Shown: one piece after another, positions 15,304 to 37,208 of the stretch
Position numbering within the stretch: position 1 is the stretch's first letter
How the letters are laid out: each line of letters opens with the position of its first letter
DNA from: Defluviitaleaceae bacterium
Lineage (GTDB): Bacteria > Bacillota > Clostridia > Lachnospirales > WRAX01
Direction: 5' to 3'
Length of the DNA: 37,555 bases
NCBI GenBank assembly: GCA_009780415.1
Contig: WRAC01000026.1
Span: forward strand, 1-37,555
Made by a program: the position numbers and the translations under genes
The notes under the pieces: generated by a model
Databases searched by the model: none
The model's input: the letters and a program-made list of their open reading frames with translations, nothing else
What the model was told of the DNA's origin: nothing

Positions 15304-16135
15304 ATTATACGCCGATATGCACGTACATTCATATTTTTCCGACGGCAGTCTTACACCCGAGGAGATCGTTGAAGCCGCAAAGAAGAACAATGTCGGGGTT
15401 CTTGCCGTCGCTGACCATAACTTTCTGGAGGGTTGTCTGCTCACACGCGAACTGTGTGCCGATAATGGCATCATCTGCATTCCCGCCGTGGAGATTGACA
15501 CACTGGATGGGGAGAACCACTTACACGTACTTGCCTATGGGTTTGACGTGAATAACGCGCGATTCCGCGATTTCCTGGCTCATACGCGTTCAATACTGTT
15601 TGAAACCAACGATAAATTGATTAAGGCCATGGAAAAAGACTACGATACCATTTCCGCAGCCGATTACAACGATTTCATTTACGACAGGCGGCTTGGCGGC
15701 TGGAAGAGCCTCCATTACCTCATGGCAAAGGGACTGACCGCAACCCTCCGGGAAGGACTCATTTTTTATTCGCGGTATAACATTACCCATAACAAGATGA
15801 ATTATTCGCCGGTTAACGCCGCCGTGCGCGAGATACATCAAGCGGGGGGATATGCGGTGCTGGCGCATCCGGGCGAACATAACATGATTAACATGAACAG
15901 CCTTGACATTTTTCAAAGCGAAGCCACACGTATACTGGAATATGGGCTTGATGGCATAGAGTGTTACTACCCAGCCCATTCTGAAGCGATAACGCGGATT
16001 TGTTTAGACCTATGCAGCGAAAAGGATTTGCTGATAACAGCCGGCTCAGATTGCCATGGCTCATTCGGCAAAACAAGGCTCGGGGAAATGAACATACCGG
16101 TTGAAAGGCTTGTATTAAAAGACTTGCTTGCATAA
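15296..16135 (+). CDS. PHP-domain phosphoesterase
   Basis: The protein is a PHP-superfamily metal-dependent phosphoesterase of the YciV/RNase AM kind. Metal ligands are in the N-terminal HVHSYFSDGS, ADHN, AVEID, a later LAHPGEH and the C-terminal SDCHGSF. Likely substrates are nucleotides or short RNA 5' ends. The first ATG (15317) has no Shine-Dalgarno, whereas GGGAG (15284-15288) sits 7 nt before an in-frame ATA at 15296, giving M/IDKLYADMHVHS; most PHP proteins have a few residues before the H-x-H. I therefore place the start at ATA 15296, which would be rare; ATG 15317 is the conservative alternative. Transcribed with the transporter gene. Confidence 0.85.
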   Translation: MDKLYADMHVHSYFSDGSLTPEEIVEAAKKNNVGVLAVADHNFLEGCLLTRELCADNGIICIPAVEIDTLDGENHLHVLAYGFDVNNARFRDFLAHTRSILFETNDKLIKAMEKDYDTISAADYNDFIYDRRLGGWKSLHYLMAKGLTATLREGLIFYSRYNITHNKMNYSPVNAAVREIHQAGGYAVLAHPGEHNMINMNSLDIFQSEATRILEYGLDGIECYYPAHSEAITRICLDLCSEKDLLITAGSDCHGSFGKTRLGEMNIPVERLVLKDLLA

Positions 16136-16176
16136 ATTGCCATGCCTCCTAATAAAATATAGACAAAGCTCTATTT

Positions 16177-16243
16177 TAACGTGAGTTCGGCGAAGCCGAA
16201 CCGTTTGCGCGGCAAACGAAAATCCTAAGGATTTTTCACGTTA
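16177..16243. repeat. Cloverleaf palindrome: 8-bp stem enclosing three 7-3-7 hairpins
   Basis: TAACGTGA (16177-16184) pairs with TCACGTTA (16236-16243). Between them, without a single unpaired base, lie three 17-nt hairpins: GTTCGGC-GAA-GCCGAAC (16185-16201), CGTTTGC-GCG-GCAAACG (16202-16218) and AAAATCC-TAA-GGATTTT (16219-16235). All stems are perfect. No coding frame is evident. Confidence 0.85.
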
Positions 16244-16246
16244 TGA

Positions 16247-16281
16247 GCATAATATTGAGCGGTTTTTGCTCAATATTATGC
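16247..16281. repeat. 14-bp perfect hairpin upstream of the FMN-bind-like gene
   Basis: GCATAATATTGAGC pairs exactly with GCTCAATATTATGC around the 7-nt loop GGTTTTT. It starts 3 nt after the cloverleaf and ends 25 nt before ATG 16307, leaving the AAGGAGG site free. It may be part of the same element or a leader structure. Confidence 0.7.
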
Positions 16282-16306
16282 GAATATAATTTTAAGGAGG
16301 CGCCTG

Positions 16307-16807
16307 ATGAAAGGTCCCAAAATCATCGTTTTCCACATAAGACAACTGCTAAAGACCGCCGCGTTTGTGCTGGCTGGGCTGTTGATAATATTCCTGCTGA
16401 TATGGGTGCTGGCACCCAAAGAACAAGGCGGGCGCGAGCCCCGAAGCAGCGGGCAAAGCCCCGCCGCCCTAACCTTGTCGGCGGATGAGGCGTTCGGGCA
16501 AGTGCTGTACATACCGGGATCATACAGTTCGGTTATAGTCCTGGACGACAACAACATTTATGTAACCGTGACGGTTGATGCCTTCAGCATCACGGATGTG
16601 CGTCTCACGAACATGGCGTACGCCCAGCAGCGATTGTATCCCCTGTTCACACCCGTAATGGAGCAGTTGAGGCACGACATTTTATTGCACCAGACCACGA
16701 GGGTGGAACCCCCCGAAGATGGGCCGCAAACGGGGCTGCTGCTGTTGGAAGCGATAAATATAGCCATCGGCCAGGCCTTTGCCCATACGGTTACGACGGG
16801 TTTATAG
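16307..16807 (+). CDS. Membrane-anchored protein with FMN_bind-like domain (166 aa)
   Basis: AAGGAGG precedes ATG 16307. One membrane segment (about residues 16-35) is followed by a polar linker and a domain reading YSSVIVLDDNN, VTVTVDAFSITDVRLTN and LLLEAINIAIGQA. That strand pattern and the final helix resemble FMN_bind domains, in which a Thr near the end may carry covalent FMN; I do not see a clear SGAT flavinylation motif, so flavin binding is doubtful. The YkvI gene starts 1 nt after its stop, so the two are cotranscribed and may work together at the membrane. Confidence 0.7.
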   Translation: MKGPKIIVFHIRQLLKTAAFVLAGLLIIFLLIWVLAPKEQGGREPRSSGQSPAALTLSADEAFGQVLYIPGSYSSVIVLDDNNIYVTVTVDAFSITDVRLTNMAYAQQRLYPLFTPVMEQLRHDILLHQTTRVEPPEDGPQTGLLLLEAINIAIGQAFAHTVTTGL

Positions 16808-29090: not shown

Positions 29091-29162
29091 GGCCCATTGG
29101 TCAAGTGGTCAAGACGCCGCCCTCTCACGGCGGAATCAGGAGTTCGACTCTCCTATGGGTCA
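29091..29162 (+). tRNA. tRNA-Glu (anticodon CUC)
   Basis: The acceptor stem GGCCCAT pairs with ATGGGTC (one G-U), with discriminator A at 29162. The anticodon stem CCGCC/GGCGG encloses loop CTCTCAC, so the anticodon is CTC (reads GAG). The T arm GGAGTTCGACTCTCC is standard. CCA is not encoded. It has a strong promoter directly upstream. Confidence 0.93.
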
Positions 29163-29222: not shown

Positions 29223-29293
29223 GCGGGCGTTGCATAGTGGCAGTGCGTGAGCTTCCCAAGCTCAAAGTGAGGGTTCGATTCCCTTCGCCCGCT
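29223..29293 (+). tRNA. tRNA-Gly (anticodon CCC)
   Basis: The acceptor stem GCGGGCG pairs with CGCCCGC; discriminator T at 29293. The anticodon arm TGAGC/GCTCA holds the loop TTCCCAA, anticodon CCC (reads GGG). The T arm GAGGGTTCGATTCCCTT is normal. CCA is not encoded. It is probably cotranscribed with tRNA-Glu. Confidence 0.92.
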
Positions 29294-31385: not shown

Positions 31386-31400
31386 TTGCGGGGGTGTGAT

Positions 31401-33779
31401 ATGAAGAAAAACATTTCAATACTAGTTATTATCTCTTTGCTCTTTTGCTTATCAAGTCCGGTTTCTTTGAACAGCAATATGCCCTATGATTTTGTACGGC
31501 CTTTCAACGACGGCTTGGCGGCGGTATGCCGCGGAGACTGGAAAACCGGCAAGTGGGGTTATATTGACCAGGCGGGGAACGAGGTAATACCATGCGTTTA
31601 TGATTTTGCGTGGGATTTTAACGAAGGTTTGGCATGGGTTAAGCGCGGGGATAAGGTGGGATTCATTAATACAGACGGGTTGGAGATCATCCCGTTTATT
31701 TATGACGGGGACTTTGAATATGATCTGAGGTTTGAAGATGGTTTTGCGTTAGTGTTTCACGTTGAAAGATTTAATGGTAAGTTCGGTTTAATTGATAGAG
31801 AGGGAAACGAAGTTGTGCCGGTTATTTATGATTCGATATGGCCTTTCAGTGAGGGGTTGGCCGCGGTGCGTTATGGCGGCTGGGGAATGGGTAAGTGGGG
31901 TTATATAAATGAAAGCGGACACGAAGTTATACCATGTCAGTTCGATTGGGCGTTTAATTTTACAGAAGGTTTGGCAAGGGTTAACCAGGACGATAAGATA
32001 GGTTTTATCAACACGGATGGGCATGTGGTTCTTCCCTGTACTTATGATTGGGCCGAGCGTTTCAGCGAGGGTTTGGCGGCTGTGCGGGCTGGCGATTGGG
32101 ATACCGGCTTGTGGGGTTTTATAGACAGGGAAGGGAATGAGGTTATCCCTTTTATATATGAATACGCTTACAGTTTCAGCGAGGGTCTTGCGTGGGTTCT
32201 GCGTGACGGTAAAATGGGCGTCATAGATCAAACAGGCGCGGAGGTTATTCCTTTTATTTACGATTTTTACTATAACTATATAAATGATTCGGGAGAAATT
32301 GCCGATGTCGCGTTTGAAAACGGTATTGCGAAGGTGTTGCAGGGTGACGAAGGAGTGCGTGAGTCGGGTTATGTGAGAACAGGTGAGTGGAGTTATATTA
32401 ACCGGGCGGGAAACGAGGTTATATTATACGATTATGATTTTACGCGGGATTGTAACGAAGGTTTGGCATGGACGGTCATAGTGCCGCCAATTTATGACGA
32501 TGTGCAGAGTTTCAGCGAAGGACTGGCGGCCGCTTGTTTGGATGGATATTGGGGATTCATTGATAAATTAGGAAATGCGGTTGTGCCGTTTACTTATTCT
32601 TATGTTGATTCTTTCCGCGAGGGTTTTGCCGCTGTTAGTATTGGCGACTGCTGGGATAATGCCAAATGGGGGTTCATTGATAAAACCGGGAATGTTACGG
32701 TGCCTTTGGATTATGATATGGTTGGTTGGTTTTCAGATGGACTGGCTTGCGTTGTTAAAGACGGCAAGATTGGTTATGTAAATACAACCGGCGAGGTTGT
32801 TATCCCGTTGATTTATGAGTTCTCTTATTATACATATATTTATAATGAGTATTACGTAAAATTCTTCATGCCTGCTTTTTTTGAAGACGAAGGTCTTGTG
32901 TCAGTGATGAACGCCCATTGGTCAGAAGGCGGCAAATATGGCTATATTGACAAGGCCGGAAATAACGTGATCCCCTTTGAATACGATTACGCCGCGCCTT
33001 TTTCCGATGGGCTGGCATATGTTGAAAAAAACGGGAAGTTTGGTTATATTGGCAAATCCGGTGAAATTGTTGTGCCGCTGGAATACGATTCGTATTATGA
33101 ATGGGAAGATATCTATTATATAGAAAACTATTTTGTAAACGGAGCGGCAAAAATTAGCGTTGGTAATTTATACGATGATATGAAATTTGGATTGGTTGAC
33201 AAGAACGGGGAAATTATTATACCGGTTGAATACTTAATGGTAACAAACTTTGAAAACGGCTTGGCGGCGGTTTGCGTTGGCGATATCGACGGTATTTATA
33301 ACGAAACAAACCTGTGGGGGTTTGTGGATGAAACAGGCGCGGAAGTTGTGCCTGTGGGCACATACAGCGGTGTTATATACTGCGGCGAGGGGCTTTGGGC
33401 GGTTAAAAGCGGCGGGTTATGGGGGTTAATGGACAGTGATTGTAATGAAATTATTCCGGGCAAATATAAGCGGATTCGTAATTTTTACGATGGGGCAGCC
33501 GTTGCAGAATTTGAAGGAGAATGGGTTATTATTGACATTCATGGAAATGTTGTTGCAGATTTGGCGTATAACTTTATATCGTACTCTTTCTCTGAAGGTT
33601 TTGCGGAAGTGTATAACGGCGACTGGATAAGCGGAAAAAGGGGGTTTATAGATATAACCGGACGAGAGGTTGTACCCCTTATATTTGACTATGCTTATGA
33701 GGTTAGCGAAGGTATGGCCGCTGTCAGAACCGGCGGCTGGAAGGACGGTAAATGGGGCTTTATCAGCGTAAATAATTGA
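31401..33779 (+). CDS. Exported WG-repeat protein (792 aa)
   Basis: ATG 31401 (MKKNISILVIISLLFCLSS) gives a signal peptide without a lipobox. The rest is 18 full and one partial WG repeats, each about 40 residues, of the type W/F-G-F/Y-I-D-x-x-G-N-E-V-I-P followed by F-x-x-x-Y-D and F-x-E-G-L-A-x-V (for example KWGYIDQAGNEVIP at unit 1 and KWGFISVNN at the end). WG repeats are thought to form beta-stacked binding surfaces; the ligand is unknown. One unit near residue 355 is shortened (EGLAWTVIVPPIYDD), as if about 20 residues were lost between repeats. Neighbouring lipoprotein suggests a shared surface role. Confidence 0.92.
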   Translation: MKKNISILVIISLLFCLSSPVSLNSNMPYDFVRPFNDGLAAVCRGDWKTGKWGYIDQAGNEVIPCVYDFAWDFNEGLAWVKRGDKVGFINTDGLEIIPFIYDGDFEYDLRFEDGFALVFHVERFNGKFGLIDREGNEVVPVIYDSIWPFSEGLAAVRYGGWGMGKWGYINESGHEVIPCQFDWAFNFTEGLARVNQDDKIGFINTDGHVVLPCTYDWAERFSEGLAAVRAGDWDTGLWGFIDREGNEVIPFIYEYAYSFSEGLAWVLRDGKMGVIDQTGAEVIPFIYDFYYNYINDSGEIADVAFENGIAKVLQGDEGVRESGYVRTGEWSYINRAGNEVILYDYDFTRDCNEGLAWTVIVPPIYDDVQSFSEGLAAACLDGYWGFIDKLGNAVVPFTYSYVDSFREGFAAVSIGDCWDNAKWGFIDKTGNVTVPLDYDMVGWFSDGLACVVKDGKIGYVNTTGEVVIPLIYEFSYYTYIYNEYYVKFFMPAFFEDEGLVSVMNAHWSEGGKYGYIDKAGNNVIPFEYDYAAPFSDGLAYVEKNGKFGYIGKSGEIVVPLEYDSYYEWEDIYYIENYFVNGAAKISVGNLYDDMKFGLVDKNGEIIIPVEYLMVTNFENGLAAVCVGDIDGIYNETNLWGFVDETGAEVVPVGTYSGVIYCGEGLWAVKSGGLWGLMDSDCNEIIPGKYKRIRNFYDGAAVAEFEGEWVIIDIHGNVVADLAYNFISYSFSEGFAEVYNGDWISGKRGFIDITGREVVPLIFDYAYEVSEGMAAVRTGGWKDGKWGFISVNN

Positions 33780-35298: not shown

Positions 35299-36628
35299 CG
35301 AAAAGAGGAGTTTCAGACACTATATAACCCGGGCTGACCCGATTCCAGTTTGAATCACCCGCAAAACCCAGAGTATAGATTTGACTAATGCAAACATCAT
35401 TATATTTTCTGCCCGGATACACATCCAGAATCGTAAGCCGTACATTGCGGCCAATCTCAAAAATCTCCGCGCTTGCTATTGGTAATTCTTTCAGTATTTG
35501 GTCATAAGGAATATTTGCAAACTCGATAACCCTTTCATAACCCAACGACAGTTCCTCTATTTTAAGTGTTTTGATCCTTGCGTTATCATAATAAAGCTCC
35601 TCAGTGCGGATAAATCCATTTAGTATCCCAAGTGTCAGCGCTTCATAGCTCTCGCCTTTGATTTTAATCTCGAACACGGTACCTATGCCATTATTATCCG
35701 CCGCCCATACAGTGCCAAGATTCCTGTCAAAAAGGTTATGTACGGAATATCTGTTATTATCGCTTTGTAATGTTTGGGAAACATAAATCTCCCCTATGGC
35801 GTAGGCCGAAGGCTCATCAAGCGCCGTATACTCAAAAGGATAATCCACAACAATTGAGAAAACGCCGGCATCTGCGAAATCAAAATCCTCTTGAGAATAA
35901 GTAAAAACACCAAATGCGTCACGCCGGAATTCCCTGATGTTCATTTTTATATCACGGGCAAAATAAAGCTCGGTATAGTCAACACGCAACTCAAATAAAG
36001 CCGCCTTGCCGCTGCCCCAGTACGAGGCAGGGCGGAAATCGTACATAAAAACGGCGTTTGAATAATGATCCAGCGGCCATTTATTTGTTCCGGCGCTTGT
36101 GTAGCTGTTATCCGTTTTATATGTAATGGTAAGTGTTTTTATTTCACCCTCGTCAAATGGCAGGTTAACGCTGTAATAATTGTTTTGCGTTTTCCGATAC
36201 CATACTTCTTGTCCATCAAGAGCGTTACCATAATCGGGATTGGTTTCCAGTTTGATATAATCATCGTGTTCCTCTATTTCCTGTACAAGCGAGTACGTAA
36301 GTTTTTTTCCGTTATCATAGAAAGCAATCCATCTCACCGAAGCATCCTGATATTCCTCAAATACATAATTTATAACCGGGAATATATAATTAAGCTCTAG
36401 TGCCGCCCCGGTATTAACAAGCGTATACTCAACCGATACAACTGTGCTGTAGGGCGAAATATTAATATTCAGCCTTTCATACTCTACATATATATCCGGT
36501 GTGTCTATAAAACTAATGCTGCCCCCGACTAACAGGCTGGCTCCGTCACCGGGGCCTCCGTTTGCAAAGACTTGATATCGGGGAAACGTGAAGATAATAA
36601 TACATAATATGCCAAGGATTATTCTCAT
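35291..36628 (-). CDS. Exported DUF4424/discoidin-like protein (445 aa)
   Basis: ATG 36628 follows AAGGTGG. A signal peptide ends around VFANGG (residue 22). The N-terminal region (about 25-270) resembles DUF4424-type beta sandwiches that open with GGxxxFxxTPDIxVEYERLNI. A second region (about 275-400) contains YSVHNLFDRNLGTVWAAD and IGTVFEIKI, the pattern of NADase-type glycan-binding/discoidin-like domains (ligand-binding beta sandwich). It may bind surface sugars; this is inference. Operon partner of the NlpC/P60-like gene. Confidence 0.7.
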   Translation of the reverse strand: MRIILGILCIIIFTFPRYQVFANGGPGDGASLLVGGSISFIDTPDIYVEYERLNINISPYSTVVSVEYTLVNTGAALELNYIFPVINYVFEEYQDASVRWIAFYDNGKKLTYSLVQEIEEHDDYIKLETNPDYGNALDGQEVWYRKTQNNYYSVNLPFDEGEIKTLTITYKTDNSYTSAGTNKWPLDHYSNAVFMYDFRPASYWGSGKAALFELRVDYTELYFARDIKMNIREFRRDAFGVFTYSQEDFDFADAGVFSIVVDYPFEYTALDEPSAYAIGEIYVSQTLQSDNNRYSVHNLFDRNLGTVWAADNNGIGTVFEIKIKGESYEALTLGILNGFIRTEELYYDNARIKTLKIEELSLGYERVIEFANIPYDQILKELPIASAEIFEIGRNVRLTILDVYPGRKYNDVCISQIYTLGFAGDSNWNRVSPGYIVSETPLFDE

Positions 36629-36661
36629 TGCGTCCACCTTTCTAAATATCTTTGGAATTTT

Positions 36662-36690
36662 ATTGTATCATATTTGCGATTCTGCTACAA
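36662..36690 (-). promoter_or_regulatory. Promoter of the exported-protein pair, abutting the transposase remnant
   Basis: On the minus strand TTGTAG (complement of 36685-36690) and TACAAT (complement of 36662-36667) have a 17-nt spacer, 34 nt before the ATG at 36628. The -35 box reaches the first base of the transposase fragment. Confidence 0.5.
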
Positions 36691-37208
36691 TGGTTATAGC
36701 TAACAATAAGATGAAAGCGGATGGTCTATACTACAAAACAACCGAAAAAGCCCGCAGCCAAATAGAAATTAGGGAATATTTTCAAACCGGTGATATTGAT
36801 TGGCTTCCTTGCAAGGAAAAATGGAAAGGCATCAAAAGTATTGGAATGACACGGACAACGTTCAGGTCAGACAAGGGTGAGACTTGTGAAACCAGATATT
36901 ACATAAACAGCCTGACGCCTGAAATAGAGTTGTTCTCGCATTGTGTACGAGGGCATTGGGCGGTAGAGTCAATGTATTGGCATTTAGATGTGACTTTCCG
37001 GGAAGACAAAAACCAAACGATTGAAAAAACTGCCGCTGAAAATTTTAACATTTTACGAAAACTGGCACTATCCATCTTAAAGGTGTTTGAACTGGATAAG
37101 AAATACAGTTTGAAAAAGAAACGTTTTGCTTTAAGTTGCGGATTCCGCAAACTCATCGACAAGTTGATGGCTCTTTGCTTTTCCTTTTGGGGGCAGATTT
37201 ACTTGTGA
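36690..37208 (+). pseudogene. ISAs1-family transposase, 5'-truncated remnant
   Basis: The 172-residue frame carries the C-terminal part of ISAs1-type transposases: RSQIEIREYF, DIDWLPCKEKWKGIKSIGM, ETRYYINSL, the DDE glutamate region VRGHWAVES and WHLDVTFREDKN, then ENFNILRKLALSILK. The first ~200 residues with two catalytic aspartates are missing, and the join near residues 1-20 (VIANNKMKADGLYYKTTEKA) is shortened too. It cannot transpose by itself. Terminal inverted repeats were not identified. It marks the edge of the exported-protein island. Confidence 0.85.

Follow-up and report, generated by a model that had tools for sequence, protein, structure and literature searches.

The window, by which we mean the whole 37,555-nucleotide stretch of the Defluviitaleaceae contig WRAC01000026.1, carries on its forward strand a compact cluster of hairpins at 16177-16281. 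The cluster begins with a four-way-junction module (16177-16243), recognized from its fold and from covariation, in which an 8-bp outer stem (TAACGTGA at 16177-16184 paired with TCACGTTA at 16236-16243) encloses three hairpins of 7-3-7 geometry. These are hairpin 1 at 16185-16201 (GTTCGGC-GAA-GCCGAAC), whose 5' arm coincides with the inner half of the terminal repeat described below, hairpin 2 at 16202-16218 (CGTTTGC-GCG-GCAAACG), and hairpin 3 at 16219-16235 (AAAATCC-TAA-GGATTTT). There are no linkers between the hairpins, and the only unpaired bases within the module are those of the loops. Hairpin 4 (16247-16281) follows after a TGA and has a 14-bp stem formed by GCATAATATTGAGC and GCTCAATATTATGC. 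This geometry, as given in the first-pass annotation, is correct to the base by both the sequence and the DNA fold; folding the cluster as DNA returned exactly the drawn structure at -39 kcal/mol, compared with -13.4 ± 2.4 kcal/mol for shuffled sequences (z = -10.8), and none of 200 shuffles was equally good.

Downstream of the cluster lie a Shine-Dalgarno sequence and then an ATG at 16307, matching the earlier description. The label "FMN-bind-like" that had been given to the gene starting there (16307-16807) could not be confirmed, as Pfam gave no match. A promoter and terminator scan of 16080-16330 was empty. The motif GAATATAAT, which follows hairpin 4, was considered as a promoter and rejected on reading, because transcription would begin at the Shine-Dalgarno sequence. 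At the gathering threshold, Rfam recognized only tRNAs in the window (two genes on the forward strand, at 29091-29162 and 29223-29293; RF00005) and nothing at the element, and a permissive Rfam scan of seven loci also gave no match at the element. Elsewhere on the forward strand, the window holds a long open reading frame at 31386-33779 (~800 aa), the translation of which reads as WG-type repeats, and, near the contig end, the C-terminal part of an ISAs1-family transposase (36588-37208; NCBIfam NF033564).

Copies of the element, their ends, and their insertion sites

The cluster is present in three copies in the window's genome, the two others being 83 to 86% identical to a 121-nt stretch and located on other contigs. 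Altogether, we collected ~75 copies over eight genomes (G000, G006, G014, G037, G050, G058, G072, and the Bacillota MAG Cu122P5bin5). Copies L010 and L012 of Cu122P5bin5 came from an exact-pattern search, the remaining matches of that pattern being chance. Of the 392 genomes examined in the order, 7, belonging to four families, were positive with a five-copy covariance model, with 26 matches in G058, 22 in G050, 19 in G037, and 3 in G072. Of 391 genomes sampled at class level and 398 at phylum level, two sets that overlap each other and include some genomes of the order, none but the window's own matched a 32-copy model, and viral contigs searched with left-end and right-end patterns gave no match either.

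Element ends were read from copies aligned with their flanking DNA. Full-length copies measure 148 to 153 bp (~150 bp), with a longer form of 175 to 180 bp in which hairpin 4 contains an additional hairpin. They are bounded by ACSTGAGTTCGA...TCGAACTCACGT and run in the order ACSTGAG, hairpins 1 to 4, joint GAATATAATCAAAG, hairpin 5, and CTCACGT. Exact 7-bp target duplications flank 18 of the 49 two-ended copies (1.7 expected with shuffled partners), and none is 8 bp long; at least 6 of the 7 positions match in 31 of 49 full-length copies, with the consensus TAATWTA. L014, a complete copy in the window's own genome, has TAATTTA at both sides. At the place in G050 that corresponds to L031, the element is missing, but ~1 kb of other DNA is found there, so that the place does not qualify as a clean empty site.

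The window copy breaks off at the conserved joint GAATATAAT (16282-16290), as located by alignment of copies, and lacks the fifth hairpin and the right terminal repeat that L014, L009, and L012 possess. Both the window copy and L002 end after GAATATAA(T), without hairpin 5 and the right end. On the left, the window copy has the terminal inverted repeat ACGTGAGTTCGG (16179-16190), preceded by the presumed target duplication TATTTTA (16172-16178), which fits the consensus; with the right copy lost, the 7-bp duplication is read here from its left side only. By its sequence, then, the window feature is the left ~113 bp (about two-thirds) of a ~150-bp element, the right end having been lost. Fragments of other kinds occur in G072, where the unpaired ends L086 to L103 comprise solo right ends, left fragments, and minimal palindromes, with no enclosed transposase recognized in the first ~230 bp. 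In the three solo right ends L086, L091, and L092, the break always falls at the 3' foot of hairpin 4, the mirror image of what the window copy and L002 show as solo left ends. The minimal palindromes of G072, ~45 bp long (L090:4256-4300 and L098:220-262), contain nothing but hairpin 5 and both terminal repeats and are possibly mobile micro-derivatives.

Insertions are almost all intergenic. Among the 49 full copies, the TAA stop codon of an open upstream frame is completed by the left end in 13 cases and by the right end in 4 (P = 0.05), and between same-direction neighbors the sense orientation is favored 27:12 (P = 0.02); because several tests were run on mechanically called open reading frames, the stop-codon and orientation bias is only a hint. 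The element's first base completes an upstream TAA in L024, L027, L043, L051, L063, L064, L066, and others, and the upstream gene appears to stay intact in such cases.

A tree of the copies groups them mostly by genome, as bursts, support values not being considered. L032 and L045 (from G050 and G037) cluster with L009 from another family, which suggests horizontal transfer of the element between families. In L057 and L060 (~1001-1155), from two species of one genus, the element occupies the same spacer before the same gene, whose sequence suggests a YlqF-like GTPase, and a terminator-like hairpin lies just upstream of the element. These are probably two independent insertions, because their target duplications differ.

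IS982-type ends and the presumed partner transposase

A search with DDE_Tnp_1 led to L120, also in the window's genome, where an exact 12-mer ACGTGAGTTCGA (L120:967) lies ~100 bp before a broken transposase gene that is split over two frames. Singly, both transposase pieces match NCBIfam IS982 below the cut-off, and one of them scores above it in the genome search; the right end of L120 has been lost close to the contig end. The other DDE_Tnp_1 loci had no matching ends within reach. Relatives of the L120 transposase are present in plasmids and viral contigs, and the ends of five loci were computed independently of the miniature inverted-repeat transposable element (MITE) sequence. IS982 elements on a Nostoc plasmid (L135) and on a contig of the viral collection (L131) carry ACGTGAGTTCGA at both ends (12/12), with target duplications TATGTTA and TAATATA, respectively. 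A Pseudanabaena element (L137) has the ends ACGTCAGTTCGAC/ACGTGAGTTCGAC, with ACGTGAGTTCGA at one end only, and the duplication CAGATAA, and a Bacteroides element (L136) has the near-identical ends ACGTGAATTCGA/ACGTGTGTTCGA; at the fifth locus, L133, such ends were not found. The target duplications of these four intact elements are thus 7, 7, 7, and 6 bp long.

The element examined here has the corresponding properties. It is 148 to 180 bp long, contains no transposase gene, and has up to 26 matches per genome; its terminal inverted repeats are identical or nearly identical to those of IS982-family elements (11/12 bases of ACGTGAGTTCGA at the remaining end of the window copy), and the 7-bp target duplication of full-length copies has the length seen in three of these four elements. 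Because both ends and target duplications match IS982 elements, we file it as an IS982-type MITE, and the window feature is very probably part of such a non-autonomous element. Mobility by IS982 is what we infer from the same ends and duplications. The first-pass annotation had considered selection or mobilization of the element likely, and the multiple copies, terminal inverted repeats, and 7-bp target duplications bear out mobilization. Compared with the IS982 elements examined, the common part consists of the 12-bp ends only, and this set may lack the actual parent.

The window's genome yielded no intact IS982 transposase (broken L120 only), and none was detected in the four copy-rich genomes G058, G037, G050, and G072. 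The partner transposase may have been lost from the copy-rich genomes, may have been overlooked, or may act from elsewhere.

Paired changes and decay in the interior

The interior folds as a four-way junction plus two long hairpins, whereas IS982 termini do not fold so. Among 5 copies, 99.5% of cells are paired and 13 pairs are double-changed; among 32 copies, the values are 90.8% and 29 of 57 pairs (0 of 500 shuffles). The 32 copies contain 105 double-changed cells, compared with 23 in shuffles and 13 to 27 in slid registers, controls that do not fully remove relatedness among copies. Even among the three copies of the window's genome, stems are altered on both arms. In hairpin 2, relatives show changes on both sides at 6 of 7 pairs. 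The base of hairpin 4 has two further pairs in relatives; it carries tandem G.A in the window copy, G-A/A-G tandem mismatches in some lineages, and C-G/C-G in other lineages. In the G037/G050 lineage, the outer stem has changed from AACGTGA/TCACGTT to AACCTGA/TCAGGTT and the right terminal repeat stays CTCACGT. As the 5' end changed with its internal partner and CTCACGT did not, it is the junction stem, and not end-to-end pairing, that is matched.

Within genomes, single-sided departures comprise 113 G-U and 97 A-C cells (P = 0.30), yet double Watson-Crick changes (126 cells) far outnumber other double changes (27 cells). The recent G037 burst lacks double changes except in L045, a separate subfamily. 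Stems that decay without compensation had been proposed earlier as the observation that would speak against a maintained structure; single copies do decay in this way, but a comparison of subfamilies shows coordinated change. Because the stems change on both arms together between subfamilies, pairing would seem to be upheld in source copies.

It is possible, though we consider it rather unlikely, that the junction and hairpins serve a function in the element, transposition or amplification requiring them as a DNA fold (single-stranded or cruciform) or as a transcript fold. If so, only copies with intact pairing would spread, making this a bacterial MITE under selection for its folded shape as well as its ends. 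Somewhat better placed, if still short of an even chance, is the alternative that the paired changes arise without selection, from arm-to-arm copying (template switching in palindromes), with the interior a neutral passenger of the MITE. This reading concerns the interior only and is compatible with an IS982-type MITE. Two copies look like arm-to-arm copying: L020 shows a pair of adjacent double changes but lacks single-sided departures, and in L075 the outer stem is altered on both arms despite an eroded right end. The distribution of double-changed variants over three copy-rich genomes (51 in a single copy, 15 shared) and the tolerance of resident copies for single-sided losses point the same way. 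Against it, the outer-stem change of the G037/G050 lineage spans arms 51 nt apart, is common to that one lineage, and left CTCACGT untouched, and all five helices survive across four families. Selection and arm-to-arm copying may both be at work, and the data do not separate the two.

A structured cis-regulatory RNA of the downstream gene, here taken as a leader or riboswitch-like element, had also been suggested. It would account for the covariation of stems between lineages, for the Shine-Dalgarno sequence directly adjoining the element in the window and in L002, and for the orientation of all three copies of the window's genome, which is that of the downstream gene. However, those three downstream genes are unrelated, and the copies at large stand in several configurations and in both orientations, L009 lying between convergent genes. 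The copies have target duplications and terminal inverted repeats, and no part of the element matches Rfam above the gathering score. Pair losses show no strand-specific tolerance of G-U; because G-U is not favored over A-C, resident copies are not kept as sense-strand RNA. A cis-acting RNA is therefore unlikely, and as an explanation of the window feature we consider it very improbable. Loop sequences cannot decide between DNA and RNA. Across copies, hairpins 1 and 3 mostly close with C(GAA)G, which gives DNA mini-hairpins of great stability, and hairpin 2 mostly closes with C(GTAA)G, which is a GNRA tetraloop in RNA.

Even less probable is a repeat of the REP/REPIN type that relies for its movement on a RAYT (Y1, HUH) transposase, the agent named in the first-pass annotation. 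The element is palindromic, intergenic, and multi-copy with small hairpins, as such repeats are, but in its 12-bp terminal inverted repeats and its 7-bp target duplications it agrees with the IS982 DDE family, and the GTAG/CGTC foot is absent at the hairpins, including in the consensus. Least likely of all is a host recombination or cruciform-binding site kept for chromosome function. The very stable DNA hairpins with C(GAA)G triloops would suit it, but the element occurs sporadically, in 7 of the order's 392 genomes and in none besides among those sampled for the class and phylum, and it bears the hallmarks of insertion.

Returning to the IS982-type MITE, we propose that an IS982 transposase acting in trans would bind the 12-bp ends ACGTGAGTTCGA and move the ~150-bp element, which would insert through a 7-bp staggered cut at AT-rich TAATWTA, often at the TAA stop codon of a gene or in an intergenic spacer. 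The window copy would have lost its right end after insertion. Pairing would be upheld in source copies through selection during amplification or through arm-to-arm copying, and resident copies, once inserted, would decay without sign of RNA function. A conspicuous palindrome is accounted for in this way. Across bacterial families, its interior retains a perfect four-way junction even as copies hop, and the dozens of copies at varied stages of decay form a useful natural data set for asking if selection or arm-to-arm copying maintains the hairpins of small mobile DNA.

Relation to known mobile elements and repeats

The family is absent from Rfam and from the literature searched, in which miniature inverted-repeat elements with a four-way junction gave no match, and its novelty is the covarying junction interior. 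REP and REPIN repeats (PMC3733652, PMC3116915) are also palindromic, intergenic, and multi-copy; they are RAYT-associated and have no such terminal repeats, in contrast to the target duplications and IS982 ends found here. ERIC, Correia/NEMIS, and RUP elements (PMC2229807) resemble the present one in being ~100 to 200 bp long, intergenic, and strongly folded. The present element differs from them in forming a four-way junction with two further hairpins and in pairing its 5' end internally and not with its 3' end. The IS982 insertion sequences L135, L131, L136, and L137 share ACGTGAGTTCGA or a near-identical end and duplications of 6 to 7 bp, but they are ~1.0 to 1.1 kb long, encode a transposase, and have ends that do not fold into a four-way junction.

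IS982-derived MITEs are already known, an example being MITECca01 of Cardinium (PMC9769881). As described in the relevant passages of that report, MITECca01 is, like the present element, short and non-autonomous, with IS982-type ends and no transposase gene. It is ~240 bp long and keeps sequence beside the left repeat of its parent, whereas only the 12-bp ends of the present element match IS982. The passages on MITECca01 that a term search finds in the same report do not mention hairpins or secondary structure, whereas the interior of the present element is an array of five hairpins.
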